This document shows, piece by piece, positions 15,643 to 29,770 of a stretch of DNA of 35,234 nt; the first letter of the stretch is position 1, and the number at the start of each line of letters is the position of its first letter. Where the stretch lies: positions 1 to 35,234 of IMG/VR virus record IMGVR_UViG_3300020438_005163. One strand, written 5' to 3'. A program made the position numbers and the translations under genes. The stretch comes from a virus. The notes under the pieces are model-generated. The model searched no databases. It saw only the letters and a list, made by a program, of their open reading frames with translations, and was not told the DNA's origin.

Positions 15643-16304
15643 TATAAGACTCCATAATATCCACCAATCCCAAATGGTATTTTGGTGTTGATTGTTAAAT
15701 GATTACTCTCAATATACCTTGACTTAGGTATAACTCTGAAATCAAAACTTACCCTCGTCACAGATGTTATGTTTTGTTTATTACCATGAGTTAATTTAGT
15801 CGCGTCCCACTCCACACACTCACCATAATTTCCTCTTATCTCTTGGAAATCACCCAAGTCTTCTTCTGTCTCTGCCCATATCGTATTAGTTCCATAAGCT
15901 TTTGTTAATGGCATAAAGTAATTTAACTCCTGTACCCTTTCAGCCCATTCTTCATTTCGATAATGTCTGTCTTTATGAAACTCACCTACTGATATATTAC
16001 CAGGTAAATGAACCCTAAATGTTGGTATTTTTTGATAAACTATTTCCTCATCAAATCTTGGTTTGATATGTTGATGTAAAAAGTCCACATACAATCTATC
16101 AAAAGTATCATCTTCTCGTATCTTACCATAAAAACATTTATGCCACACGGTTGATTGGTCATTCTCTCTTTTAAATAAATCATAAGACTTGTGGAAATGT
16201 AAACGTTCTAATCCACCTGGTGGTAATATCCCATCAGAATCAAACCAATCAAAAATTATTGACCTGAAATCAAATAAAAAATTATCATAATTTATTTTAT
16301 TCAA
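15642..16304 (-). CDS. StrG-like Fe(II)/2-oxoglutarate-type oxygenase
   Basis: A 220-residue protein. GEFHKDRHYRNEEW holds the HxD iron ligands (about residues 109-111), NYFMPLTKAYGTNTIWAET follows, and LTHGNKQNITSVTRVSFDFRVIP gives the distal His and the Arg that binds 2-oxoglutarate. This pattern is that of the streptomycin-cluster protein StrG and relatives in polysaccharide clusters, where hydroxylation of a sugar or cyclitol is suspected. The start is TTG 16304, overlapping the upstream TGA as TTGA, with AAGGG upstream. Next to the nonulosonate genes, it may modify that sugar. Confidence 0.72.
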   Translation of the reverse strand: MNKINYDNFLFDFRSIIFDWFDSDGILPPGGLERLHFHKSYDLFKRENDQSTVWHKCFYGKIREDDTFDRLYVDFLHQHIKPRFDEEIVYQKIPTFRVHLPGNISVGEFHKDRHYRNEEWAERVQELNYFMPLTKAYGTNTIWAETEEDLGDFQEIRGNYGECVEWDATKLTHGNKQNITSVTRVSFDFRVIPKSRYIESNHLTINTKIPFGIGGYYGVL

Positions 16305-16963
16305 ATCTCTACCCTTGTTAAATTCATATTTTCTAATTCTTCAACCTCATCTAAATGTTTTTTAGCTGTGGTAATCATATTAAATTTAATCAAAGGATGT
16401 CTGGCAACTAAATTATACAAGACATCTTGCATAGGACCATTTACACCCCAATCAGTAGCATCAGGTGTCCCAACTAAGTAACCACTATTTTCATAAAAGT
16501 CCAACCCAAGAATATTCACCACATCACCATCTTCGGCTACTTCTAAAACTGTGTAAGCCAAAGTAGCAGTACCCGTGGATGGATAAGAGTATTTGTATTT
16601 GAAATCATCTGGTAGATTAACACCTCGTTGATACATCCAATCCTTATGCAAATCAGATAAGAATATATCAGGTAAATGACAAGAGTTTTGAATATTTACC
16701 CTACCCTCATCATGCATGTATGGTCTCATTAACTTTGTAACATTATAATTATCAAAGAAATTTATCCTTTTATATGAGTCAAGTTCTGTAGGCCAACCAT
16801 TACAACAAATATGAACCTCAGAGTCCTTTATGTATTCACCTATCTGTGGAAAAGCTTCTAACTCATTTCCAAACTCATTGGCTATAACCGTAAACTTTGG
16901 TTTCTCCAATGAGTCTATGAATTTAGCACTCTCTCCTCTAGCAAAAAAAGTAACTATCTTCAT
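16301..16963 (-). CDS. Sialyltransferase-like Rossmann protein (GT42/CST-like)
   Basis: A 220-residue protein. The N-terminus (FFARGESAKFIDSL, then FTVIANEF) and the strand STGTATLAYTVLEVAEDGDVVNILGLDFYEN resemble Campylobacter CST-type alpha-2,3-sialyltransferases, in which IALGYKEIYLSGIDFYQN occupies the same place. In CST-II a catalytic His follows in a YIGHS segment; here the aligned stretch reads WGVNGP, so His appears to be replaced by Asn. Its ATGA overlap with the NeuB-like gene supports a role with nonulosonic acid. It could instead be a related DUF115-type protein. Confidence 0.5.
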   Translation of the reverse strand: MKIVTFFARGESAKFIDSLEKPKFTVIANEFGNELEAFPQIGEYIKDSEVHICCNGWPTELDSYKRINFFDNYNVTKLMRPYMHDEGRVNIQNSCHLPDIFLSDLHKDWMYQRGVNLPDDFKYKYSYPSTGTATLAYTVLEVAEDGDVVNILGLDFYENSGYLVGTPDATDWGVNGPMQDVLYNLVARHPLIKFNMITTAKKHLDEVEELENMNLTRVEI

Positions 16964-17787
16964 ATAGTATCATTTACCTTTCTTAACTTTTCAGCAATCG
17001 GTACTTCTGAATCATATACTACTTTTTTACCATCACCTAACATCTTTCCAATCTTACGAACACTAACCATCAGTTCAGCAACACTCTCGATAGACGCTAC
17101 TTGGTCTGAACCATACATTAATCTGTCTTTGGTGATGTGAAACTCTAAACATTCAGCACCCAAAGCAGTAGCACCAATACAAGCAGCTAACCCACTATAA
17201 TGATTTGAAAATCCAACACTTAAATGTGGATATTTTTCTTTTAAAGTCGTTATATATTTTAAATTAACTTCTTCCTCTTTTGTTGGATAAGTGCTAGTAC
17301 AAGCTAATATGTATTCTGTATGTTTTAATATTTTCAGAGCAGCATCAACTTGTTCATCAGTACACATACCAGTCGATAGTATGATTGGTTTGCCAGTATA
17401 ATGTAGGGCTTCCAAAAAGTCTCTGTCCGTTGCCAAAGCAGAAGCAACCTTGTGATACTTAACATCTAAATGTTTTTCAACTAAATCTAAACTTTTTTCA
17501 TCCCAACAAGATACTATAAAATCTAAACCAAGTTCTTGTGTATAAACTTGTAGTTCTTTATACTCTTCTATATTAAACTCAATACCTTCTTTTTGTTCTC
17601 TTGTTGTTGTACCAAAAGGTGATTTTCTTGGTGTATCTAGCTCTTCTTGAGTATAAACTGATTCAATATCTCTTTTTTGAAATTTAACAGCATCACAACC
17701 ACAAGAACTTGCGGTTGCAATTAACTCTTTAGCTACATCCATATCCCCATTATGGTTTATTCCTATTTCTGCTATTACGTAAGTCAT
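16960..17787 (-). CDS. NeuB-like nonulosonic acid synthase without SAF domain
   Basis: A 275-residue (beta/alpha)8 barrel protein: VIAEIGINHNGDMDVAKELI, CDAVKFQKRD, KVASALATDRDFLEAL, PIILSTGMCTDEQV, CTSTYPTKEEEVNL, VGFSNHYSG and CLEFHITKDR. NeuB-family enzymes condense phosphoenolpyruvate with an N-acylated hexosamine to form sialic, legionaminic or pseudaminic acid. The usual C-terminal SAF (antifreeze-like) domain of about 60 residues is absent; the protein ends after the barrel. AGGAG precedes the ATG. No hydrolysing epimerase or dehydratase for the precursor is in the window, so the substrate may come from the host. Confidence 0.88.
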   Translation of the reverse strand: MTYVIAEIGINHNGDMDVAKELIATASSCGCDAVKFQKRDIESVYTQEELDTPRKSPFGTTTREQKEGIEFNIEEYKELQVYTQELGLDFIVSCWDEKSLDLVEKHLDVKYHKVASALATDRDFLEALHYTGKPIILSTGMCTDEQVDAALKILKHTEYILACTSTYPTKEEEVNLKYITTLKEKYPHLSVGFSNHYSGLAACIGATALGAECLEFHITKDRLMYGSDQVASIESVAELMVSVRKIGKMLGDGKKVVYDSEVPIAEKLRKVNDTI

Positions 17788-17801: not shown

Positions 17802-18587
17802 TTATAATCTTGTATTGTTTTTTGTTTTTAAAAAATCACCTAAATTTTCTCTGTATTTTTTATATAAAATATTATCTTTTTTTGCATTCTTACTTCTAAT
17901 TGAAAAATTAAATGCTCGTCTATTTTTATCACTTTTATTAGAAAAACTTCCATGAATAACAATTGGATTATGAAATACACAATCTCCTGGCTTTAATAAA
18001 ATGGTTTCTACCTGATAATGTTCTTTCATTTTTATAAAAGTTTTTTCATCAATACATTGAGATGCTCCTAAATTTCCTTCAGGTTTATGTGGTAATGTAC
18101 CCTCTTGAAAAGAACCTACTAAATAATATAGTGGTCCATTTTCTTCTGTTGTTTCATCTAAAGGAATCCAACAAGTTAATGCTTCAGGTGGATTAAAGCA
18201 AAAAAAAGCATTATCTTGATGTGGTTTGGTTTCATAACCTTTAATTTTTGGTTTACCCCAAAAAGATGAGTTAAATTCAAGGTCGTCTATTTCCCCATAC
18301 AATTGATTAAATAAATCAACTATTGAAGGCGAACTTCTTAAAAGTTTATATTTAGGAATATAATTAGTTAAATTATGCATACTGCTAATTTCACCATCTT
18401 CAAATAAAATAAGATTTTCAATAGCATTACTCAAATCTTTACTTTTTGATATTTTTTTAATACTTGAATACAAATTATGTAAAAAATCTAAATCAAATAA
18501 ATTTTTAATTTTAACAAAACCATTTTTTTTATATTCAATAGAAAACTGATTAATTTCTTCTTTTGATAATTTTCTACTCTGTACCAT
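17802..18587 (-). CDS. PhyH-like Fe(II)/2-oxoglutarate dioxygenase, unusually AT-rich
   Basis: A 261-residue protein of the phytanoyl-CoA dioxygenase family. KPHQDNAFF holds the HxD ligands (about residues 142-144); CWIPLDETTEENGPLYYLVGSF is the conserved double-stranded helix stretch; IHGSFSNKSDKNRRAFNF gives the distal His and Arg. Such enzymes hydroxylate small molecules or sugars; the substrate here is unknown. Hand counts of lines in this gene give roughly 10-22% G+C, against over 40% in part of the neighbouring NeuB gene, so it may be a recent arrival. The ATG at 18587 has a weak ribosome-binding site. Confidence 0.78.
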   Translation of the reverse strand: MVQSRKLSKEEINQFSIEYKKNGFVKIKNLFDLDFLHNLYSSIKKISKSKDLSNAIENLILFEDGEISSMHNLTNYIPKYKLLRSSPSIVDLFNQLYGEIDDLEFNSSFWGKPKIKGYETKPHQDNAFFCFNPPEALTCWIPLDETTEENGPLYYLVGSFQEGTLPHKPEGNLGASQCIDEKTFIKMKEHYQVETILLKPGDCVFHNPIVIHGSFSNKSDKNRRAFNFSIRSKNAKKDNILYKKYRENLGDFLKTKNNTRL

Positions 18588-18589
18588 TT

Positions 18590-19024
18590 TTATACAAGCT
18601 CAACTAACTCAATTAATGTTCCATCAAAATCTCTACAAAAACAAACTTTAGCATTTCCATCTGGAGAAATTTGTGGTTCACATATAAATTCCAATTCCAT
18701 ATCTGTCAAATCATTATAAACCTTATCTAAATTTTCTACTGTTAGAGCAAAATGAGAACATCCAACTTTCCTTACTTTGCTTTTTAAATTTTCATTGTTG
18801 TCTTCTAAATGAGAATGAAAATGTAATAACTCAATCATTCCACCATCACTATCTTTCATTTTTACCGTATTAACCCTTACATCTTTCTCACCCATTAAAT
18901 TAGATATAAACTCTCCTGTTTCCAAGTCATCCCAAACAACTTCAAACCCAAAATAATCTTTATATAATTTAAGTGATTTTTCCATGTCAGTAACAGTAAT
19001 TCCTACGTGTCTTAATTTAAACAT
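18590..19024 (-). CDS. Glyoxalase/VOC-superfamily protein
   Basis: A 144-residue two-module protein of the vicinal-oxygen-chelate fold. The metal ligands appear as His 7 (LRHVGITVTD), Glu near residue 66 (GMIELLHFH), His near 92 (GCSHFALTV) and Glu near 140 (GTLIELVEL), the methylmalonyl-CoA-epimerase or glyoxalase arrangement. The function in a sugar cluster is unclear: an epimerase, a dioxygenase or a detoxifying lyase are possible. It lies 2 bases before the PhyH-like gene, and both look like one AT-rich cassette. AGGA precedes the ATG. Confidence 0.75.
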   Translation of the reverse strand: MFKLRHVGITVTDMEKSLKLYKDYFGFEVVWDDLETGEFISNLMGEKDVRVNTVKMKDSDGGMIELLHFHSHLEDNNENLKSKVRKVGCSHFALTVENLDKVYNDLTDMELEFICEPQISPDGNAKVCFCRDFDGTLIELVELV

Positions 19025-19982
19025 TTTTTTGTCCTGTATTTATTTTTTTTATTCCATTAAATATTAGAGCTCCACCAAGCATTTCATCATTGATAAGTTT
19101 TTCGTACTCTAACTCCACTCGTTTGTAAAACTCGTTAATTTTTTCATTCTTACTTACGTTACTTACAAATGCCTTATCAGCACTTAACATAGGTTTGTTG
19201 TTTTGTTGCCAATGAACGTGATTGAAAAATGAATAATCCAAGAAACTTTTCACACCACCTTGAAATCCAACAGATTCGCATAAATCCAATATGGAGTGAC
19301 TTGTAAAATAATTAATATGAGCTTTGTGATAATAAAATTTTTGATACTTTTCACATTCGTAATTAGTTAATAATACATCATTATGATTTGGTATTGCTAC
19401 CACTAATATACCATTTTCTTTTAACAAATCAAAGCACTTTTTTAAAAAATCTTTTGGATTAAAAACATGTTCAACCACATCAAATGCCACAATAATATCA
19501 AAATAATCCTTTGGTAAATCCGCATCTTTTAAAATCGAATTATGAACAATGACATTTGGATTTTTGTACTTGACAAAATCGGAATCTTGTATGTTTGGTT
19601 CTACTACTTGACATTCTTTTACACCAAAGTCATTCACTCTTGATACGATACCACCATGAGCACAACCAATCTCCAAGAACTTTGTTTCACTTGTTAGTTT
19701 ATCTTTGAATAGGTTGAATTGTCTATCATTCAATTCTTTATATATATGAAAGTGTTCCTCGGATTTTTTTCTTCTCCCCTCACTATCGGCACTAAACTCA
19801 TCCCTATACTTCTCGGAATAAAAATCATCTTGAACCCAAAACTCCGATGCTAGTATTCCGTGACCTGTTGGTTCGTGAAACCACAATACCGCCTCGTCTC
19901 CATCTCTCAATGTTATTGGTTTTAAAGTGAAATCGTCTACATCATAATCAAAACCAAGATTGTGTAGTAAATCAAGACGCAT
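19017..19982 (-). CDS. SAM-dependent methyltransferase (class I)
   Basis: A 321-residue protein from ATG 19982, which has AGGAG at 19988-19992. An N-terminal region of about 85 residues precedes the SAM domain: KFLEIGCAHGGIVSRV (motif I), YFDIIVAFDVVEHVFNPKDFL (motif II-III with the DVVEH signature) and ENGILVVAIPNHND. This is the Methyltransf_23 style found in polysaccharide clusters. The start overlaps the aminotransferase stop by 11 bases. A longer frame exists upstream but has no ribosome-binding site. Substrate unknown. Confidence 0.8.
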   Translation of the reverse strand: MRLDLLHNLGFDYDVDDFTLKPITLRDGDEAVLWFHEPTGHGILASEFWVQDDFYSEKYRDEFSADSEGRRKKSEEHFHIYKELNDRQFNLFKDKLTSETKFLEIGCAHGGIVSRVNDFGVKECQVVEPNIQDSDFVKYKNPNVIVHNSILKDADLPKDYFDIIVAFDVVEHVFNPKDFLKKCFDLLKENGILVVAIPNHNDVLLTNYECEKYQKFYYHKAHINYFTSHSILDLCESVGFQGGVKSFLDYSFFNHVHWQQNNKPMLSADKAFVSNVSKNEKINEFYKRVELEYEKLINDEMLGGALIFNGIKKINTGQKNV

Positions 19983-21222
19983 TGTAACTCCTAATGAAAT
20001 CTCTGATAACTCCCATTGATTCAATAATAGCAGACTCAGATATCGTCAATGGTGGTCCTAACTTAATAGACTCTCGTTTAGTCCATACGGTAAGAACACC
20101 ATTTTCAATACAGTTCTCCGTAACATAGTTCCCCATGTCAGCATCCTTAACGATTATAGCAGAGACCATACCCCTTACGTTCACAACCTCAACACCCTCT
20201 TCTTGTTCTAACTGTTTGTTTAGTTTCTCAAACAACTTTATTTTTTTCTTCAAATTACTTTGAAATAAATCATCAGTTAAGTATTCAAGATTAGCCAAAC
20301 CAGCCGCACAACACAAAGCATTTCCAGCTTGTGTGCTACTTAGATTTGCTGATGAATCTACATCAATTATTTCTTTTCTACTCAATACAGCAGACAAAGG
20401 TAAGGATGATGTTAATCCCTTACCAAGTGTTACTATATCTGGTTTGTAGTCTCCATAAGTCATATATCCATACAACTCACCCATTCTGTAAAAACCTGAT
20501 TGTACCTCATCAAAACAAAACAATATTTTATTCTCTTGACATATCTTATATATCTCATCAATGTATTCTTTTGGATACATCCAAGCACCCCAACCTTGAT
20601 AAGTTTCTAAAAAGAAAGATGCTATTTTATTCAACGGTGGTAAATCCTTTAACTTTAACTTATCACCTTTCTTTGGAAATGGTAGAAACAAAATCTCACT
20701 ATCTTTAACATTTGACCACTCTGTACTTGTACTTGTCCCACCAATCAATTCAGAACCCAATACCCTACCGTGGTAATTACCAGTAAATACAACTATGTAT
20801 TTTCTTTTGTTTTTCTTCCCCCATAGTTTTATCAAACGATAAGCGGCATCTGTAGCCTCACTACCAGAATTCAATAATGTAACTTTATCAAAATGAGATG
20901 GTGATATATCTAATAGTTTCTTAATAAACTTATCTCGTATGTCTGTATTATATTGATAAGCAAAAACTAAATTAGAATCAACTTGATTCTTTATAGCCTC
21001 ATTGATGTAAGGATTAGAGTGTCCAGCATTTGTAACGAATATACCAGATGTCATGTCTATCCATCTATTTCCCTTGTCGTCAAAAACATAAAAGTTTTTA
21101 GCTTCTTTCCACTTAACTGGCATCTCACAAATATTAGATGGTTCGTGTTTGTGTTTGAAATCTCTGTAAGATTTTACGTCAAACTTGAAGTCTTTTATAT
21201 ACCTATGCTCGGTTGTTATCAT
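19972..21222 (-). CDS. Class III PLP aminotransferase (GSA-aminomutase-like)
   Basis: A 416-residue protein. LLNSGSEATDAAYRLIKLW (about 117-135) is the PLP-phosphate loop, FTGNYHGRVLG follows, FCFDEVQSGFYRMG holds Asp 228 that contacts the pyridine nitrogen, and IVTLGKGLTSSLPL carries Lys 258 for the Schiff base. All catalytic residues are present. Aminotransferases of this class accompany NeuB and NeuA homologues in several bacterial glycan clusters, and here the gene directly follows the NeuA-like gene, so a role in an amino-nonulosonate or its precursor is reasonable. AGAGG precedes the ATG. Confidence 0.88.
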   Translation of the reverse strand: MITTEHRYIKDFKFDVKSYRDFKHKHEPSNICEMPVKWKEAKNFYVFDDKGNRWIDMTSGIFVTNAGHSNPYINEAIKNQVDSNLVFAYQYNTDIRDKFIKKLLDISPSHFDKVTLLNSGSEATDAAYRLIKLWGKKNKRKYIVVFTGNYHGRVLGSELIGGTSTSTEWSNVKDSEILFLPFPKKGDKLKLKDLPPLNKIASFFLETYQGWGAWMYPKEYIDEIYKICQENKILFCFDEVQSGFYRMGELYGYMTYGDYKPDIVTLGKGLTSSLPLSAVLSRKEIIDVDSSANLSSTQAGNALCCAAGLANLEYLTDDLFQSNLKKKIKLFEKLNKQLEQEEGVEVVNVRGMVSAIIVKDADMGNYVTENCIENGVLTVWTKRESIKLGPPLTISESAIIESMGVIRDFIRSYNAS

Positions 21223-21880
21223 TGATTGCCTCTAATATTTTGAAATCATCTAAAGTATCCACATCATGTGTAAATGGTGTGATGTAAGCTAACATTTTAT
21301 CTCCATGTAAATCATCGTTATTCATAAAATAGTCTGGTCTAACAATGTCTATATAACCATTTGGATTGTATGTCTTTGGTAACATCTGTCTTGGTAAGTT
21401 ATAATAATCACCTTTCATTTGCCCATCAAACAATCCACCCCAATAGATATCATTTTGTTTAAATGATTTATAAGCAGTTTCAGATGACTCATGAGCAGAC
21501 CTCATGGATGTACAATGTTTATTTTTTAAAAAGTAATCTATTGCATCATCCAAGATATGTGGTTTTATCATGGGAGTTGTAGCCCTTAAATGTATAATAT
21601 CACTATAGTCATCCAAGTATTCCACAGCATGTCTCATCGCACCTATATCTAATGATTCGTCTTGAGCAAACTCTGATGGTCTATCAATTACTTCAGCATC
21701 ATGTCCTAAAGCAATATTTTTAATCTTATCATCATCTGTCGAAACATAAACTTTAGATATTCCCTTTGTCATATGAGCAGATATTATAGGGTAAGCTAAT
21801 AAAGGCACTCCATTTAACTTTTTAATATTCTTACCTGGAACACCCTTACTACCACCACGAGCTAATATTATTACTTTCAT
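21203..21880 (-). CDS. NeuA-like CMP-nonulosonate cytidylyltransferase
   Basis: A 225-residue GT-A-fold nucleotidyltransferase. VIILARGGSKGVPGKNIKKL is the CTP-binding signature, VYVSTDDDKIKNIA, IIHLRATTPM, YNPNGYIDIVRP and a final DVDTLDDF match NeuA and PseF/LegF enzymes, which activate nonulosonic acids as CMP derivatives. Together with the NeuB-like enzyme it forms the core of the CMP-nonulosonate route. AAGGAG lies upstream of the ATG, inside the end of the deacetylase-like gene (ATGA). Confidence 0.87.
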   Translation of the reverse strand: MKVIILARGGSKGVPGKNIKKLNGVPLLAYPIISAHMTKGISKVYVSTDDDKIKNIALGHDAEVIDRPSEFAQDESLDIGAMRHAVEYLDDYSDIIHLRATTPMIKPHILDDAIDYFLKNKHCTSMRSAHESSETAYKSFKQNDIYWGGLFDGQMKGDYYNLPRQMLPKTYNPNGYIDIVRPDYFMNNDDLHGDKMLAYITPFTHDVDTLDDFKILEAINDNNRA

Positions 21881-22623
21881 AACAACAACTCCTTTGGAAA
21901 TGTTTTAGTTTCACTATTCATTGATTCCAACAACTCCTTGTTTCTTTCCTGTATTAGTTTTGTGAAATTACTAATATTATCATACCCATCCTCTGACCAA
22001 GAAAAAGGATGAGTTAATAATTGCATCTTCTGTGGCAAATCCCAATAGTCAACGTGAAAGGGATGTCCATACTTCCACTCGTGATTGGAATCTGCTAAAT
22101 AATGAACTCGTAATTCTTGTGGTTTATCACCACTAAAATAATGAAAAAATTCCTCACCATAACAATTTATTTTATTAGGAACTTCCACATATTTTTCCAA
22201 TAAAGTTGGATTGCTACCACACCTATGAAAAGCAAATCTATCAACTTCAAATCCATAGTAGTGTTCTAATGTCTTTATATCTTTTAGTATGTAATCAACT
22301 AATTCATCATCTTCCATCATAGGTGGATTCTGATGTAGTCCGATGTAATGTCCCATAGACTCTATCTCTTGAATAGCCTCTATGTTCTTTTGTGATAGGG
22401 CATTATATGTATTGTTTCTTAACTGAACCGTGTAGGTAGAATGAACGTTTAAATCCTCGTGTTCAATACGAGCCATTTCTAATGCTCTATCAATTGAAAA
22501 CTCTATATCATGTCTCAAAACACAGAAAGAATTAACCTCATCACTTACTTCAGAAAAATCCATTATTGGTAAATTTTGTTTTACCAAAGTAATTACATTT
22601 CTATATTCAGCATAACTAAACAT
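21877..22623 (-). CDS. Polysaccharide-deacetylase-like protein
   Basis: A 248-residue protein from the ATG at 22623, chosen because GAGGGAG (22633-22639) lies nine bases upstream; a longer in-frame extension to 22689 lacks this support. CVLRHDIEFSIDRALEMA is a metal-binding HD motif of the NodB-like fold, and SMGHYIGLHQNP supplies two more His. The family removes acyl groups from amino sugars, or uses the fold for other hydrolyses. Near NeuA, the likely targets are a sugar precursor or a glycan chain. Assignment by motif only. Confidence 0.65.
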   Translation of the reverse strand: MFSYAEYRNVITLVKQNLPIMDFSEVSDEVNSFCVLRHDIEFSIDRALEMARIEHEDLNVHSTYTVQLRNNTYNALSQKNIEAIQEIESMGHYIGLHQNPPMMEDDELVDYILKDIKTLEHYYGFEVDRFAFHRCGSNPTLLEKYVEVPNKINCYGEEFFHYFSGDKPQELRVHYLADSNHEWKYGHPFHVDYWDLPQKMQLLTHPFSWSEDGYDNISNFTKLIQERNKELLESMNSETKTFPKELLL

Positions 22624-23962
22624 TGACAATAACTCCCTCTCTACCAATAAAAGTTTTATTGTTAGCAGCAACAAAACCTTTGTCCTCACCTATATGTGTA
22701 ACTAATTTTATAGTACCATCCGAAAGTTTAGAGTTGATTGCATCTCTGACAGTTCTACCTTCATGTCCATAATCATCGAATATAAAAGTTGGATTGTTTA
22801 ATTGTTTAGATAATCTATCAATGTCAAAAACTACCTCTTCAAAGGTATGTCCAGCATCAATATGTACAACGTCAACATCTGGTATCTTAAAATTCACGTC
22901 ATATACATCCGAGTTTATAAACTCGACATTATTAACATCACTACAATTTTCCTTTGTCTTTTCATAATTTACAACATCCCTTTCAACTGCTATCACCTTT
23001 TTAAAACATTCCGAATAAACTCTCGTGGTGTTTCCTTGATGACATCCTAATTCTAATATGGTTTTATCTTTGTAACCCTCACCAAATATTCTCAGTATGT
23101 CCTCTTTGAATTTACGCGATGTGGTGCTTTTATTCTTACCTTTATTTTCTATTTTATTTAGCACAAAATTTTCATCATAATTATGTTTCACCAAATTCCA
23201 AACTTGTTTCATTATATGTGTTCTTTGATCTTTTGGTATGCCAGTAAAAACCCAATTATAAGCATGTTTGATGAACAACGGAGTCTTATCCTCATTTAAT
23301 TGCCAGTTATGTCCAAACATATCTTTACGATGTATATGGGTTAATTTATAAACAAAAGGTAGCGTTAAATTCATCTCCACGTTGTTAACCTGTAACCAAT
23401 AATTCAATGGCGTTTGTTCAGTCCCCTTTCCAACTATTTTGTCTTGCAACTCTACAAATGTATCCACGTTATCATAGTATAACTTCTTGAATGATTTGAA
23501 TACCTCTTTGTGTTGTTCATTAAAAATCATAGGTGAACTGCTAACGTACTTTTGTTTGTCAAACTCAAACCCATCAAAGAAATCTTTATACCCCACAATA
23601 CTTTTATATATCCAATTCAAGTTATCCGTGTCTCTTACAGCAGTTAATTTATGGTCTGTTAATTCAAAGAAATTTGGAGCATCCCATTTAATCATATGTG
23701 TACAATCTATCTGACAAATTTGGTCATAGTCAATACCCCTACGTTCCATCTCATCAAACACAAAGATAGCTTTCTGCCAGTTTATTCTGAATCTACTTAA
23801 ATCTTCTTCAATTGGTTTTTCAAAGGGAACAAACAACACATCATTTTTCTTACACCAATATTCCCAAGTCTTTCTTGAGATATCAACCCATTCCCATCCA
23901 CCATACTTGTGAGCATACTTATCGTTTTTTACACCAATCCACCAAATAACATTTTTCTTCAT
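22616..23962 (-). CDS. Fusion: GT-A-like glycosyltransferase domain plus SAM methyltransferase
   Basis: A 448-residue protein with two domains. Residues 1-255 resemble the GT at 14090-14851 (APNFFELTD, LNWIYKSIVGYKDF, GTEQTPLNYWL), but where that protein has DAD this one has DCT (YDQICQIDCTHMIKWD), losing the second metal Asp. Residues about 285-448 are a class I methyltransferase: TILELGCHQGNTTRVY, VVAVERD-like KVIAVERDVVNYE, VDVVHIDAGHTFEEV and FIFDDYGHEGRTV. It may transfer and methylate a sugar in one chain, or the first domain may be only a binding scaffold. AGAGG precedes the ATG at 23962. Confidence 0.7.
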   Translation of the reverse strand: MKKNVIWWIGVKNDKYAHKYGGWEWVDISRKTWEYWCKKNDVLFVPFEKPIEEDLSRFRINWQKAIFVFDEMERRGIDYDQICQIDCTHMIKWDAPNFFELTDHKLTAVRDTDNLNWIYKSIVGYKDFFDGFEFDKQKYVSSSPMIFNEQHKEVFKSFKKLYYDNVDTFVELQDKIVGKGTEQTPLNYWLQVNNVEMNLTLPFVYKLTHIHRKDMFGHNWQLNEDKTPLFIKHAYNWVFTGIPKDQRTHIMKQVWNLVKHNYDENFVLNKIENKGKNKSTTSRKFKEDILRIFGEGYKDKTILELGCHQGNTTRVYSECFKKVIAVERDVVNYEKTKENCSDVNNVEFINSDVYDVNFKIPDVDVVHIDAGHTFEEVVFDIDRLSKQLNNPTFIFDDYGHEGRTVRDAINSKLSDGTIKLVTHIGEDKGFVAANNKTFIGREGVIVNV

Positions 23963-25461
23963 ATTGCCTCTATGATTAATTTTGATTTATTAGTAACACA
24001 TTGACCATCTGGTAAACTGAACTTCCAATTATGTGTCGGACACACTATTTTACCATCTATGATTTTTCCCTTTGACATATCACCCTTAGCATGTGGACAG
24101 TATCTTTGACACTTATAATCCTTACCGTTGAATTTCAAGTCAAACATTTCCTCTTCCAATTTATCAAAGTGAAAATCTTCATACTCTTTATATGAAACAG
24201 GATCTGCTAATTTTAAAAATGCCATAAGGTGTTCATTATACATATCAGGTTTTCTTCTAGCTTTAAAACCCAAAGTTAAAAAGAACTCTTCCCAAGTCAT
24301 TTTATTTTTTAAAATATGATTTAGCCATTTACCTTGAATATCAAACTCATAAAAATACTCTTCATCATTGAAATGTTTAACTGTTTTATTTACAAAATCA
24401 ATTATTATTTTTTCCTCATAATTACCACTAACGTTGAGCAAAACAGAACCACCTATATTTTCACACAACCTTGGCGCTGACCTCATCAATGGATAAAAAT
24501 ATTTAATACATTTTCTCCATAAACTATAATCTACCTTTTCTATTTTACTCAATGCTTCTTTTATAACATGTTCTCTTCTATCTTTATATTTTTTGAGATA
24601 ACCTACTTTATCGGTAAAACACTCATGCTGTAAATTATCTTTCCAATCATCACCAACCGAATCACCTGGCATCAACACCATGAATTTTTCGGAAATACTT
24701 GGGTGATTTTCTTTGAAGAAATTATATATGTCGGCTTCACTTGGAAATGTATTCTCCACTAAAAAATTTATATGATAAGTATCATTCTGTAAAAAACAAG
24801 GAGGTCCTGCAAACGGAATATAGAATTTAGGATTTAATTCATTGATAACATTTAGTATCACTTGATACTTAAATAACCTCTTATCCCTACACAAGTCATA
24901 CATCTTATCGTCATCATAATCATAGACCAGAGGATACCAACTAGCACCTGAATATTGTTTTAACAAGTAGTCAACTTCATACCTTTTCTTTATCCAATCG
25001 AGGTCTTTCTGTGACGGTTTCATATCATTGAAATTAACAATTACCTCACCATTCATTTCAAAAATCATAGCACTATCTTCTTGTCCCATTGGAATTTGAA
25101 TCATTGGTGTGTACTTTACATCTCCTAATTCAAAAGTAGTTCTATCATCCACCTCTATGATTTCATTTACTAAATTATCTTTTAGTAAATTGACGTATCT
25201 TTTATTGATAAAATTAGCAGTAACTATTTTTGTAGATGGATTTAACTTTTTTAAAAACTCTATATCACAGTGGTCTCCATGCTCATGTGAAATACAAACA
25301 TAATCCAACCCATCAACCCAACTAAAATCAATATCAGTATTATCTGGATATTGAAACCAAGTTGATTCATAAGCACCTGTTTTGGAAAACCAAGGATCGG
25401 TAACAACGGATGTGTTATCGGTTTTCATGTATAGAATAGCATGACCTAAGTATTGTATCAA
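23959..25461 (-). CDS. MBL-fold/Rieske hydroxylase of the CMAH/NamH family
   Basis: A 500-residue protein. The N-terminal metallo-beta-lactamase-like domain has VVTDPWFSKTG and CISHEHGDHCD (about 57-66), then LKQYSGASWYPLVYD and FAGPPCFL. The last 60 residues form a Rieske [2Fe-2S] domain, YCPHAKGDMSKG then VCPTHNWKFSLPDGQC, with C-x-H and C-x2-H ligands (about 455, 457, 474, 477). TWEEFFLTLGFKARRKPDMY recalls animal CMP-Neu5Ac hydroxylase (CMAH); the domain order matches the mycobacterial UDP-MurNAc hydroxylase NamH. Both turn N-acetyl into N-glycolyl. The start is TTG 25461, overlapping the upstream TGA. Confidence 0.85.
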   Translation of the reverse strand: MIQYLGHAILYMKTDNTSVVTDPWFSKTGAYESTWFQYPDNTDIDFSWVDGLDYVCISHEHGDHCDIEFLKKLNPSTKIVTANFINKRYVNLLKDNLVNEIIEVDDRTTFELGDVKYTPMIQIPMGQEDSAMIFEMNGEVIVNFNDMKPSQKDLDWIKKRYEVDYLLKQYSGASWYPLVYDYDDDKMYDLCRDKRLFKYQVILNVINELNPKFYIPFAGPPCFLQNDTYHINFLVENTFPSEADIYNFFKENHPSISEKFMVLMPGDSVGDDWKDNLQHECFTDKVGYLKKYKDRREHVIKEALSKIEKVDYSLWRKCIKYFYPLMRSAPRLCENIGGSVLLNVSGNYEEKIIIDFVNKTVKHFNDEEYFYEFDIQGKWLNHILKNKMTWEEFFLTLGFKARRKPDMYNEHLMAFLKLADPVSYKEYEDFHFDKLEEEMFDLKFNGKDYKCQRYCPHAKGDMSKGKIIDGKIVCPTHNWKFSLPDGQCVTNKSKLIIEAI

Positions 25462-26498
25462 TTTGACTCCTTGTAAGCATCTTGATACCAATCCAAGTAA
25501 TTACTCATGCCATCTTCAAACGTTGTAAATTCAAAATTCCCAAACTCTTCTTCATACCTATCTAATGATATGGAAACTTTTTTTGGTGCCGAGGATGCAA
25601 CATCATTATTTACCTCACCCTTGACAATCTCTTTGTTAAATCTATCACCGATTATTTTTGCCATATCATATATGGTAGTCTCTTCCTTGCCACCTACGTT
25701 GTAGACTTCGTGTTTTCCTTTTAGTAAAATGTTAATTAACATTACACAACAATCAGAGATATGTTGATATTTCCTAAATGCAGAACCATCATCAAATAAA
25801 TTTATAGTTTCATTCTCAATACCCTTCAAGGTCAACTCACTCATCACACGAGTATCTTCCATCACGTGACCAGGTCCATAGCATAGCGAAACCCTAGCTG
25901 ACTTCACATCATAACCTTTTTGTCTTAATAACCCCACGTTATATTCACCTGTGGTCTTACCTATTATATAGGGAGCTCTCTTGTGCCAAAGGTCAAGTTT
26001 TAATTCATCGGTTTCACAATGTGGTTTAGTCGTGTCGTTTAGAGCATAGACTTCAGAACTACTGATAAAAAGCATCTTTGATTTTTTTCTCTCAAACATC
26101 ACACTTTGAAAAGTCTTAACCATAGAATTTACATTTAACTTATAGGTCTTTTCCGCATCCGATAAAAATTTATTTGGTTGTGCATATCCAGCACAATAAA
26201 TACAAAAATCTATCTCATCAAAAAACCAAGAATCACTTGTCAAATCTCTTGAATGATACACAACATCGTTTCTATAAATAGAATTACCCAATCTATTAGG
26301 CTTATCACTCAAACTTGTCAATACCAACTTACAATTAAAATCATGCTCATCATTGAGGTACATGAAAAAATCAGAAAGAAAACCACCAATCAATCCATTA
26401 GCGCCAGTAATCATAATTGTCTTGTTTTTGAATTCATCTAAGTTAGAACCCAAGATGTTAAATATTTTTTCCATTGATTTTGTCAAGAATTTATTCAT
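25458..26498 (-). CDS. Extended SDR, nucleotide-sugar epimerase/dehydratase-like
   Basis: A 346-residue extended SDR. About 25 extra residues precede the Rossmann motif TIMITGANGLIGGFL. CIYCAGYAQPNKFL, LFISSSEVYAL (catalytic Ser) and PYIIGKTTGEYNV (YxxxK) follow, then RVSLCYGPGHVMEDTRV, KYQHISDCCVMLI and YNVGGKEETTIYDMA, as in UDP-glucuronate decarboxylase-like and related epimerases. It lies after the split transketolase and before the CMAH/NamH-like gene, so it could act on either product. The exact reaction is not determined. Confidence 0.82.
   Translation of the reverse strand: MNKFLTKSMEKIFNILGSNLDEFKNKTIMITGANGLIGGFLSDFFMYLNDEHDFNCKLVLTSLSDKPNRLGNSIYRNDVVYHSRDLTSDSWFFDEIDFCIYCAGYAQPNKFLSDAEKTYKLNVNSMVKTFQSVMFERKKSKMLFISSSEVYALNDTTKPHCETDELKLDLWHKRAPYIIGKTTGEYNVGLLRQKGYDVKSARVSLCYGPGHVMEDTRVMSELTLKGIENETINLFDDGSAFRKYQHISDCCVMLINILLKGKHEVYNVGGKEETTIYDMAKIIGDRFNKEIVKGEVNNDVASSAPKKVSISLDRYEEEFGNFEFTTFEDGMSNYLDWYQDAYKESN
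25467..25472 (-). promoter_or_regulatory. Ribosome-binding site fixing the TTG start of the CMAH/NamH-like gene
   Basis: AAGGAG on the minus strand, five bases before TTG 25461, within the last codons of the SDR gene. The in-frame TTG at 25491 has no such site, and the shorter protein starts just before the first conserved beta strand. Confidence 0.7.
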
Positions 26499-27371
26499 TT
26501 ATATCCACGATAGTTTTTGTATTATTGATTGTTTATCCATTCCAGCATCATTTCTTAAATTACTAAAATTTCCGTAATTTGTCAAGAACTTTCTTTCCAA
26601 ACCTATTCTTTTTACAGCAACATTAAATTTATCGGAAATAAAATCCCCTAACCCACCTATGGTAAAATGATTTTCAACACTATATATTTTTTGAGCATTT
26701 TCTATTAATTTTGTAATATGAAAACAAGACTCATCGGTAACATGAGATAATGTCGGAACATAAATCACCCCAATATTTGGTGATTCTAAAACATCATCTA
26801 AAATGTGACCAGTTACAAAAACCCATCTATTAGTTTTTGATTTTTTAATAACTTTCATAACTCCTGGTTCAACTTCAAAATCTTGTGAGTGTTGTTCCTT
26901 AGATAATCTAAAATATTTTGGTAATCCATTACCCCACGTTTTTTCAAATAAGGTTCTGAATTCTTTCGGGGTTGATGGTTCAAATACTTGCATATTCGGA
27001 ATTAATCTCATCATAGCTATATCACCATAACAATGGTGTGTACAACCTAAATCAGAATAATCATAAGTTCCACCAACCGTTACTATTGTCACTTCCGTGT
27101 TTTGATATCCAATGTCATTCTTTATCTGTTCAAATGCTCTCTCTACTAAAAATGGAGCGATAGTATGTATGATAGGTCTCATACCCTCGATTGCCATACC
27201 ACTTGCCATTCCAACCATTGATTGCTCACAGATACCAATATTATAAAATCTATCAGGCGCTACTTGTTCCGTTTCTCTTAAAAGAAAGTGACTTATATCA
27301 CCGACCATCACCACAGACTTGGAATCATTCTTTACGGTTTCTAAACATAATTTAGCAAACTCTCTTCTCAT
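26499..27371 (-). CDS. Transketolase C-terminal subunit (pyrimidine-binding and C domains)
   Basis: A 290-residue protein corresponding to the second half of transketolase. VVMVGDISHFL and FYNIGICEQSMVGMASGMA (catalytic Glu 49 that activates thiamine diphosphate) form the pyrimidine domain; GGTYDYSDLGCTHHCYGDIAMMRLIPNM is the conserved GxTHxxxED-like region; the C-terminal domain includes FVTGHILDDV and YSVENHFTIGGLG. It must pair with the N-terminal subunit immediately upstream, to which it is coupled by ATGA. See the N subunit for function. Confidence 0.88.
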   Translation of the reverse strand: MRREFAKLCLETVKNDSKSVVMVGDISHFLLRETEQVAPDRFYNIGICEQSMVGMASGMAIEGMRPIIHTIAPFLVERAFEQIKNDIGYQNTEVTIVTVGGTYDYSDLGCTHHCYGDIAMMRLIPNMQVFEPSTPKEFRTLFEKTWGNGLPKYFRLSKEQHSQDFEVEPGVMKVIKKSKTNRWVFVTGHILDDVLESPNIGVIYVPTLSHVTDESCFHITKLIENAQKIYSVENHFTIGGLGDFISDKFNVAVKRIGLERKFLTNYGNFSNLRNDAGMDKQSIIQKLSWI

Positions 27372-28102
27372 CCTATCACCTCTATGAATTTTTTATATTC
27401 CTCTTCAGTTGGAGCACGATGGTGCCAAGCAAACATATCCTTCTCTATTTCTTTTATACCTTTACCCTTTAATGTATTTGCCAATACAACCTTTGGTTTA
27501 TCAACAACAGACATGGAATCAATCAATTGTTCCACATCATGTCCGTCTACTAAAGCAACATCACATCCAAATGATTTGAACATTTGAGTATTTAAATTAG
27601 GTTCTAATGACCTGATTTGAGACTTGTTATAATCAATTATAACAATCAAGTTATTTAATTTATTACTAACGGCAATCAATAATGATTCCCAAATAGAGCC
27701 TTCATTCGATTCCCCATCACCTACGATACAAAATATATTACCTTTTTTATTTTGTATTTTTTTAGCCATAGCAGCACCCACAGCTATCGGAAGTCCATGT
27801 CCCAATGAACCCGTAGAGGCATATATTTGGTCTAATTTATTTCTATCAGGATGACCACCTAACTTGATGTTGTATTTACCAAAGTTCAAAACCTCATCCA
27901 AAGGAACATGACCTTGTAGATGTAACATGGCATAAAGAGCCAAACAACCGTGACCTTTACTTAAAATAATTTCATCTTCTTTTTTCTGTACTTCAGAGTA
28001 TGCTTTCAGTATCTCAACCAATGATAAAGCACTCGGTATGTGACCATGTTTAGCATGATAAGCAGCCTGAACTATTATCTTTCTCATATCCTTTGTATTC
28101 AT
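27368..28102 (-). CDS. Transketolase N-terminal subunit (ThDP pyrophosphate domain)
   Basis: A 244-residue protein, the first half of a split transketolase. SKGHGCLALYAML, STGSLGHGLPIAVGAAMA and the ThDP/Mg motif GDGESNEGSIWESLLIA (128-144), ending in IIDYN, are intact, as is a terminal WHHRAPTEEEY. Two-subunit transketolases transfer two-carbon units. In sugar clusters such pairs are suspected or known to build branched or chain-extended sugars. Its neighbours, an RmlC-like epimerase and a ColD-like dehydratase, make a glycan role more likely than central metabolism. GAGGGA precedes the ATG. Confidence 0.9.
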   Translation of the reverse strand: MNTKDMRKIIVQAAYHAKHGHIPSALSLVEILKAYSEVQKKEDEIILSKGHGCLALYAMLHLQGHVPLDEVLNFGKYNIKLGGHPDRNKLDQIYASTGSLGHGLPIAVGAAMAKKIQNKKGNIFCIVGDGESNEGSIWESLLIAVSNKLNNLIVIIDYNKSQIRSLEPNLNTQMFKSFGCDVALVDGHDVEQLIDSMSVVDKPKVVLANTLKGKGIKEIEKDMFAWHHRAPTEEEYKKFIEVIG

Positions 28103-28617
28103 GAGTCCCTCGGTTGTAAAATTGGTTTATCGATTGGCCAGAATATATCTAAAATAGGATCATCCCATTTCAAAGTAAATTGTTCGTCAATGTCAGGATA
28201 GTCCCCATCATATGCCCACTTATACAGTATATTGGCACTTTCACTCAATATCAAATAACTAAGTCCCACACCTGGTGGTAATACTAAAATATTTCTATTA
28301 TGTAAACTTAATATTTCCCAACTCCATTCTGCAAAAGTTTCAGAGTCCTCTCTGTTATCAACAATAACACAATAAACCTCACCATGAACACAGGTTATTA
28401 ATTTAGTTGTTTTGTAATCACCATGTATGCCACGTAATACATTTTTTGATGAAGAACTTATCTTATCTCTAACGTAATTATTTTTAGAATCTATTGTGTT
28501 GTCATAGACCGTATAATAATAACCTCTATGGTCTTGGTAAGCATCTTGCTCAATAAATTTAACACCTTTAAAATTACAATCTCTTATTTTTCTACTTGTA
28601 AATTTTTTTTTATTCAT
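28099..28617 (-). CDS. RmlC-like dTDP-sugar 3,5-epimerase-type cupin
   Basis: A 172-residue protein of the dTDP-4-dehydrorhamnose 3,5-epimerase family. FIEQDAYQDHRGYYYTVYD, KNVLRGIHGDYKTTKLITCVHGEVYCVIVDNR (catalytic His in RGIH) and NILVLPPGVGLSYLILSE match, followed by KWAYDGDYP and a short C-terminal tail. RmlC-type proteins epimerise 4-keto sugars at C3 and/or C5. Following a ColD-like 3-dehydratase, where C3 has lost its hydroxyl, epimerisation at C5 is the plausible reaction, but some family members are only isomerases. Start ATG 28617 with GGTGGGA upstream. Confidence 0.82.
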   Translation of the reverse strand: MNKKKFTSRKIRDCNFKGVKFIEQDAYQDHRGYYYTVYDNTIDSKNNYVRDKISSSSKNVLRGIHGDYKTTKLITCVHGEVYCVIVDNREDSETFAEWSWEILSLHNRNILVLPPGVGLSYLILSESANILYKWAYDGDYPDIDEQFTLKWDDPILDIFWPIDKPILQPRDS

Positions 28618-29770
28618 TTATCCCACCATTAATTATATTAGAAATGTAAACTATCTCACCATCTGTTATATGTGGATTGTTTGGTACATAAAAACCATAC
28701 TGATCTATTTCTGTAACATTGGGTAATTCTAATCTACCATACTCTTTTACATAAAAAGGTTGAGTTCCCATTGAACCACAGATCATTGGTCTGACTTCAA
28801 CACCACCTCTTTCTAATTGTTCAACTATTTTATCTCTATTGGGATGTATTACAGGATAAGCAAAGTTAGAAGTAAAATCATTTAACTGCTTATTCGGTTT
28901 CCAATAATTATTTTTTACCAATTCTTGATAAGTTAAATAATTATATTCTCGTCTCACACCCCAACCATCAAGTTTATCAATTTGAGTTAATCCTATATAA
29001 GCCTGTAAATCTGTAGCTCTGACATTAAAACCTTGATAGTAAAAAGTATACAATGAATTAAAAGTAGATACATCCCAATCTTGCTGTAATTCAATCTGTT
29101 TTTCTGTATCCAAGTCTCTGTCCCAACCGTGAGCCCTTATTGATACCAATATATCATACAAATCCTTATCATCAGTTGAAACAAACCCACCTTCAATTGT
29201 TGAGATATGATGACCAAAAAATGTAGAAAAACTAGACATTCTTCCAAACGTACCTAATTTTCTTTTTCTGTATTTAGAACCCATTGACTCACAGGTATCC
29301 TCTAATAAGATAACATCATATTTTTCACATAAGTTTACAACCTTCTCCATCTCAGGAACCAGCCCTAAAACAGAAACAAACATTATCGCTGATGGCGATT
29401 CTTCTTTAAATATTTTTTCCAAGTGTATTAAATCAGCTGATAAATCCCTCTTATTGGAATCACATAGTATTGGTTTCAATCCCAACTGCATGACTGGTGC
29501 TAAATCAGTAGCCCAAGCCACGGATGGAACTACTACCTTATTGTTCTTTAAATATTTACCTTGTTGTAATGCCGACAACATCAAAAGATTAGCAGATGAA
29601 CCCGAATTACAGAATACTGAATACTTTCTACCCAACCAATTGGAGTATTTTCCCTCTAATTCTAATGTTACAGGTCCTTTGGTTAATCTTGGATACCCCT
29701 TCAACCAATCAACTAATCTATCTATATCTTGATTGTCAATTGTATCTTTTACTAAACTTATCTTATCCAT
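28610..29770 (-). CDS. ColD/RfbH-type PLP-dependent 4-keto-6-deoxysugar 3-dehydratase
   Basis: A 386-residue DegT/DnrJ/EryC1-fold protein. CNSGSSANLLMLSAL (PLP-phosphate loop), LLEDTCESMGSKYRKRKLG (Asp that binds the pyridine N) and FSTFFGHHISTIEGGFV are intact. At the normal Schiff-base Lys there is His 188, as in ColD (GDP-4-keto-6-deoxymannose 3-dehydratase, His 188) and RfbH. No Fe-S cysteine set of RfbH is seen. It therefore probably removes the C3 hydroxyl rather than adding an amino group, giving a 3,6-dideoxy sugar; with Gmd in the window the GDP route to colitose-like sugars is favoured. Confidence 0.85.
   Translation of the reverse strand: MDKISLVKDTIDNQDIDRLVDWLKGYPRLTKGPVTLELEGKYSNWLGRKYSVFCNSGSSANLLMLSALQQGKYLKNNKVVVPSVAWATDLAPVMQLGLKPILCDSNKRDLSADLIHLEKIFKEESPSAIMFVSVLGLVPEMEKVVNLCEKYDVILLEDTCESMGSKYRKRKLGTFGRMSSFSTFFGHHISTIEGGFVSTDDKDLYDILVSIRAHGWDRDLDTEKQIELQQDWDVSTFNSLYTFYYQGFNVRATDLQAYIGLTQIDKLDGWGVRREYNYLTYQELVKNNYWKPNKQLNDFTSNFAYPVIHPNRDKIVEQLERGGVEVRPMICGSMGTQPFYVKEYGRLELPNVTEIDQYGFYVPNNPHITDGEIVYISNIINGGINE

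Follow-up and report, generated by a model that had tools for sequence, protein, structure and literature searches.

A phage lineage of the CMAH/NamH superfamily encoded within a nonulosonate-type sugar gene cluster

N-Glycolyl sugars occur in animals, as Neu5Gc, and in mycobacteria and their kin, as N-glycolylmuramic acid. To our knowledge, both characterised enzymes that combine an MBL domain with a Rieske domain, CMAH and NamH, act on an N-acetyl group, the substrate of NamH being UDP-MurNAc; the MBL-fold hydroxylases CmlA and FrsH act on carrier-bound amino acids. In CMAH the Rieske domain stands at the N-terminus and the MBL domain follows it (PMC8227644), and a review from 2016 knew of no published CMAH structure (PMC4819959).

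Here we describe a protein of this superfamily from a virus record of 35,234 bases (the whole stretch of DNA analysed, hereafter the window), whose plausible genes lie on the minus strand. The original prediction placed the gene at 23959-25461; these coordinates are exact, and the strand, which it did not give, is minus. The TTG start overlaps the stop of the epimerase gene upstream (TTGA), and the stop overlaps the ATG of the gene downstream (ATGA). The gene, its motifs and the sugar genes upstream are as follows.

28610..29770, minus strand: DegT-family enzyme with GHH at the position normally held by the lysine site; by inspection it resembles ColD/RfbH
25458..26498, minus strand: NAD-dependent epimerase/dehydratase (Pfam), overlapping the hydroxylase start
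25467..25472, minus strand: Shine-Dalgarno sequence AAGGAG, with 5 nt spacing to the TTG start at 25461
23959..25461, minus strand: putative CMAH/NamH-superfamily hydroxylase, 500 aa, with MBL fold, SCP2_Rv3818 domain and C-terminal Rieske domain
25270..25287, minus strand: MBL metal motif HEHGDH, residues 59-64, present in the sequence
24208..24504, minus strand: SCP2_Rv3818 domain (PF25451), Pfam match
24031..24099, minus strand: Rieske motif CPH-x16-CPTH, residues 455-477 of 500, by Pfam and in the sequence

The GHH at the lysine site of the DegT-family enzyme, which has a 73% identical counterpart in the related viral contig L098, suggests a deoxygenase of the ColD/RfbH type. Elsewhere, a transketolase is encoded in the sugar cluster as two genes, for the N-terminal and pyrimidine-binding parts (26499-28102), an arrangement that recurs in a small number of NeuB loci, and a peptide deformylase gene lies at 1256-1888.

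An MBL fold and a C-terminal Rieske site had been predicted for the protein, and both are borne out: the motifs are present, and the Pfam models Lactamase_B_3 (39.5 bits, cut-off 24), SCP2_Rv3818 (60.7 bits, cut-off 28.2) and Rieske (35.9 bits, cut-off 20.3) all score above their cut-offs. Within HEHGDH the family alignment shows no variation at the two outer histidines, the aspartate and the last histidine. The Rieske site is intact, and across an alignment of 20 phage and bacterial homologues the residues of the metal and Rieske sites vary little or not at all. A single chain thus holds an MBL HxHxDH site and an intact Rieske CxH-CxxH site, the combination that marks the MBL-Rieske superfamily. 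The AlphaFold model, built with 20 homologues as input, has a pLDDT of 91.6 and a pTM of 0.90; Foldseek places FrsH first and CmlA fourth, both MBL-fold diiron hydroxylases, with UlaG-like and NAPE-PLD-type hydrolases as further neighbours. The match to FrsH and CmlA covers the MBL part alone.

By sequence the protein is a member of the CMAH/NamH superfamily, and we assign it to that superfamily and to neither NamH nor CMAH. The predicted match to these two families therefore stands at superfamily level and, for NamH (Rv3818-type), in the shared order of MBL, SCP2_Rv3818 and C-terminal Rieske domains; it does not extend to a CMAH-like architecture, in which the Rieske domain lies at the opposite end, nor to a position nested among NamH-type proteins. 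Bacterial NamH-type relatives are 26-31% identical over the full length, and an approximate, unverified CMAH sequence, whose match can serve as a lead only, aligns over about 430 residues of the MBL and SCP2-like parts (23% identity, E 4e-15). The phylogeny that had been put forward as a check, built without a verified Rv3818 sequence, groups the window protein with further phage proteins and those of two Gammaproteobacteria MAGs, one of them Legionellaceae, in a lineage that is sister to the bacterial NamH-type lineage. Support in the first tree is 98/99 for the NamH-type side and only 90/78 for the phage side, which reaches 96/92 in the second; the branch of the approximate CMAH sequence is much longer in the first tree, and the homologue of contig L095 sits on a long branch and is of unsure placement.

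The bacterial homologues are mostly from Actinomycetota, and the Rieske domain is C-terminal in 79 of 80, the remaining one being counted as N-terminal. On two actinobacterial plasmids murB lies close to the relative, which fits hydroxylation of UDP-MurNAc. The window protein differs from NamH in belonging to a separate lineage and in lying in a phage glycan cluster, with no mur gene among the window proteins scanned; NeuA, NeuB or SpsF was found near none of the 80 bacterial homologues. In the two Gammaproteobacteria MAGs (L056:7935-9554 and L082:7995-9557) the hydroxylase is followed by an epimerase and, farther on, by a glycosyltransferase-like gene; a surface-glycan role is possible for these copies. 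The idea that the gene was recently acquired from one widespread in proteobacteria is unsupported, the seeded genome being the only match among 398 Pseudomonadota genomes sampled.

The phage origin of the gene, originally called probable, is solid. Besides coming from a virus record, it has homologues in at least six further viral lineages, which are 61% (L008-L011, one virus), 56% (L098), 43 and 42% (L244 and L245), 30% (L100, cut by the contig end) and 29% (L095/L099) identical to the window protein. T4-like core genes share a contig with the hydroxylase in two of these lineages: a T4-type clamp loader was located upstream of it by tblastn in L009, and the L098 record carries a clamp loader, likewise by tblastn, and by inspection DNA polymerase, UvsX-like and ribonucleotide reductase genes. 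The MBL-SCP2_Rv3818-Rieske architecture is intact in the window, L098, L244 and L245, and both motifs are retained in L009 and L095. Searches of viral contigs with the window hydroxylase as sole query, or with the GT42-like protein P0006 alone, gave no match and alignments were required; each new alignment brought in more members, and short peptide patterns miss some, so all distributions and counts given here are lower bounds. No homologue was found by tblastn against 50,697 phage records, PHROGs holds no family for the hydroxylase, and the literature covered, mostly outside subscription journals, yielded no report of a phage CMAH or NamH homologue. A distant separate branch of Rieske-less MBL homologues, left out of the analysis, occurs in phages with terminase- and portal-like genes (L012:2414-3670, L013:828-2201 and L014:2-1408); a Halobaculum plasmid protein in L007 likewise lacks the Rieske site.

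Downstream of the hydroxylase the gene run continues, in this order, to a protein of 220 aa.

22616..23962, minus strand: GTMT, a glycosyltransferase-like N-terminal part (labelled by inspection, no Pfam match there) fused to a methyltransferase
21877..22689, minus strand: WbmS/NodB-deacetylase-like protein with RHDIE motif, function by inspection, no Pfam match
21203..21880, minus strand: NeuA-like CMP-ulosonate cytidylyltransferase, by Pfam and further searches
19972..21222, minus strand: class III aminotransferase of a NeuB-NeuA-aminotransferase-methyltransferase-VOC cassette, by Pfam and recurrent context
19017..20024, minus strand: methyltransferase of the cassette, by profile match and recurrent context
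18590..19024, minus strand: VOC/glyoxalase-fold protein of the cassette, by Pfam and recurrent context
17802..18587, minus strand: PhyH-type 2OG-Fe(II) oxygenase (Pfam)
16960..17787, minus strand: NeuB-family synthase of 275 aa that lacks the SAF domain, by Pfam and curated profile
16301..16963, minus strand: predicted GT42-like (CstII-type) transferase P0006, 220 aa, by predicted fold; overlaps neuB

The hydroxylase had been described as lying beside NeuA and NeuB. Both genes are real and belong to the same gene run on the same strand, but neither is adjacent, NeuA lying 2.1 kb and NeuB 6.2 kb downstream. The PhyH-type oxygenase beside NeuB is a second candidate O2-dependent hydroxylase of the same operon.

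The TIM-barrel of the window NeuB matches PF03102 at 205.7 bits (cut-off 22.1); it shows no SAF match and misses the cut-off of NeuB_NnaB TIGR03569 (225 against 399.65 bits), and no recognisable NeuC is present in the window. Genes of the NeuB family that lack SAF, such as those of the window and of L107-L186, are widespread among viral contigs, with 446 matching stretches, and many of them sit in the NeuB-NeuA-class III aminotransferase-methyltransferase-VOC cassette. Among phage cassettes with a short NeuB, that of Marine virus AG-345-L05 (Kyanoviridae) has a SAF-less NeuB 60% identical to that of the window and then a GT42-like gene, as here; unlike the window, its record lacks the hydroxylase. 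Sequence searches and Foldseek alone gave no significant match for P0006. Its model (pTM 0.74), however, has as its top eight structural matches exclusively GT42 sialyltransferases, namely CstII and enzymes from Pasteurella, which superpose on 165-175 residues with an rmsd of 3.8-5.0 and reach Z 9.2-9.9, followed by a MAF glycosyltransferase at Z 9.0 and unrelated proteins from 8.0, and its homologues accompany NeuB in several other viruses. From this predicted fold P0006 is probably a transferase of a CMP-activated sugar, and with NeuB and NeuA the window would then hold synthase, activating enzyme and probable transferase for a CMP-sugar.

A comparison of loci shows that the hydroxylase is an uncommon accessory of such clusters. 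In a set of 80 viral loci picked for the similarity of their NeuB, the NeuB, NeuA, aminotransferase and VOC genes occur together in about 20, and none of the 80 carries the hydroxylase; the idea that every NeuB cassette of phages includes it was accordingly rejected. The clearest case for a nonulosonate setting, judged by gene content, is L244, where one cluster holds NeuB, NeuC, NeuA, a PseB-like dehydratase, a PseC-like aminotransferase, a GT42-like gene and, about 5 kb farther along, the hydroxylase; this NeuB has a SAF domain and scores 378.8 bits, slightly below the 399.65 cut-off, and NeuC scores 407 bits against a cut-off of 235.9. L245 carries SpsF-DegT, NeuB, a GT42-like gene and the hydroxylase. 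Each of the six viral lineages whose sugar loci can be read (window, L098, L095, L009, L244 and L245) has a CMP-ulosonate-type cytidylyltransferase, a count that is weak alone because about half of WbmS loci carry a cytidylyltransferase regardless; the three contigs of close lineages that are long enough to span the NulO cassette (window, L244 and L245) all have NeuB. In the T4-like phage contig L095 (2263-4292), the hydroxylase operon holds KdsA, above its cut-off, a KdsD-like isomerase and a cytidylyltransferase, likely a route to a Kdo-type CMP-sugar. Kdo has no N-acyl group, and L095 thus shows the hydroxylase gene alongside genes for a sugar that lacks one.

The position of the hydroxylase relative to WbmS and GTMT suggests a tailoring slot. 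WbmS and GTMT bracket a place that is filled in different phages by a hydroxylase or a formyltransferase: the order in L098 is WbmS, hydroxylase, GTMT, SpsF-type cytidylyltransferase, DegT and contig end, and L108, L109 and L118 carry, one after the other, WbmS, formyltransferase, GTMT, SpsF, DegT and NeuB. A formyltransferase likewise lies between WbmS and GTMT in L192 and L201, and in at least six other loci the two genes adjoin and the slot is empty. The slot formyltransferase matches Formyl_trans_C above the cut-off, with its N domain below; in the PDB its top hit is the domain of ArnA that N-formylates a sugar (E 8e-20), and PseJ is also listed. These N-formyltransferases are unrelated to the hydroxylase and would place a formyl group on an amine, whereas the hydroxylase would act on an N-acetyl group; finding both in one slot is the picture expected of an N-acyl tailoring position. 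The swap is apparently an exchange of N-acyl-modifying enzymes, and it is suggestive since a single hydroxylase-bearing virus, L098, has the gene in exactly that slot.

Our structural and contextual data suggest a model in which the protein hydroxylates the N-acyl group of a nucleotide-activated amino sugar, most likely a nonulosonate or a precursor of it, a reading to which we give a probability of about 0.6. N-acyl hydroxylation as such is likely, and a nonulosonate is a probable target. The Rieske cluster would take electrons, probably from a ferredoxin or flavodoxin system of the host, none being seen encoded near the hydroxylase, and pass them to the iron site of the MBL domain, which with O2 would convert the N-acetyl methyl into N-glycolyl. 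The substrate would most likely be a CMP-nonulosonate or precursor, part of a glycan made by the phage's own gene cluster; the modified sugar may later be transferred by the GT42-like protein or a glycosyltransferase partner, to a glycan displayed either by the virion or at the surface of the host.

Rather unlikely, in our judgement, is a UDP- or GDP-linked N-acetylamino sugar transferred by the adjacent GTMT, the NulO cassette being an unrelated neighbour in a sugar-rich locus. Such a substrate would agree with the action of NamH, the closest architecture, on UDP-MurNAc, with the GDP-mannose dehydratase and DegT genes present, and with the fact that the most constant neighbour of the hydroxylase is GTMT or its glycosyltransferase part, directly downstream in the window, L098, L244 and L245, and not NeuA or NeuB; WbmS-GTMT pairs are moreover found without NulO genes, which leaves room for a slot sugar other than a nonulosonate. 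The constant presence of the cytidylyltransferase and of NeuB in the contigs counted above speaks against it. Highly improbable is hydroxylation at another position of the sugar, such as one of the carbons in CMP-activated Kdo or another 3-deoxy-ulosonate of the nonulosonate kind. CMP-ulosonate genes are common to all contexts, the L095 homologue lies among Kdo genes, and CmlA and FrsH do not act on N-acyl groups; against this, L095 is just 29% identical and may differ in role, both characterised MBL-Rieske enzymes act on N-acetyl, and it is the N-acyl group that the exchange with formyltransferases implicates. We give hardly any credence to the view that the gene has decayed or been repurposed and its product is no oxygenase, for which the rarity of the hydroxylase among NeuB-bearing phages might be cited, as the metal and Rieske residues are all kept, the start signals are good and the frame is intact across viral lineages at 42-61% identity.

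The originally suggested route to an N-glycolyl nonulosonic acid thus gains from the nonulosonate-type pathway in the gene run, the formyltransferase exchange and the NeuB-NeuC-NeuA-GT42 set of L244, and loses from the SAF-less NeuB and missing NeuC of the window and the Kdo genes of L095. We tentatively propose, at somewhat less than even odds, that T4-like phages possess their own route of this kind, comprising NeuB, NeuC, NeuA, a GT42-like transferase and a hydroxylase of NamH domain order, and that swapping the hydroxylase with an N-formyltransferase in the tailoring slot diversifies the N-acyl group of a surface sugar as a shield or adsorption block. If N-acyl hydroxylation is indeed the reaction, a viral enzyme lineage in clusters for sialic acid-like sugars would mean that the N-acyl chemistry of surface glycans is adjusted by phages. 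The swap between hydroxylase and formyltransferase offers a clear, testable idea of the role of the slot, and the phage proteins would provide new enzymes of NamH domain order for the study of the N-acyl hydroxylation reaction.
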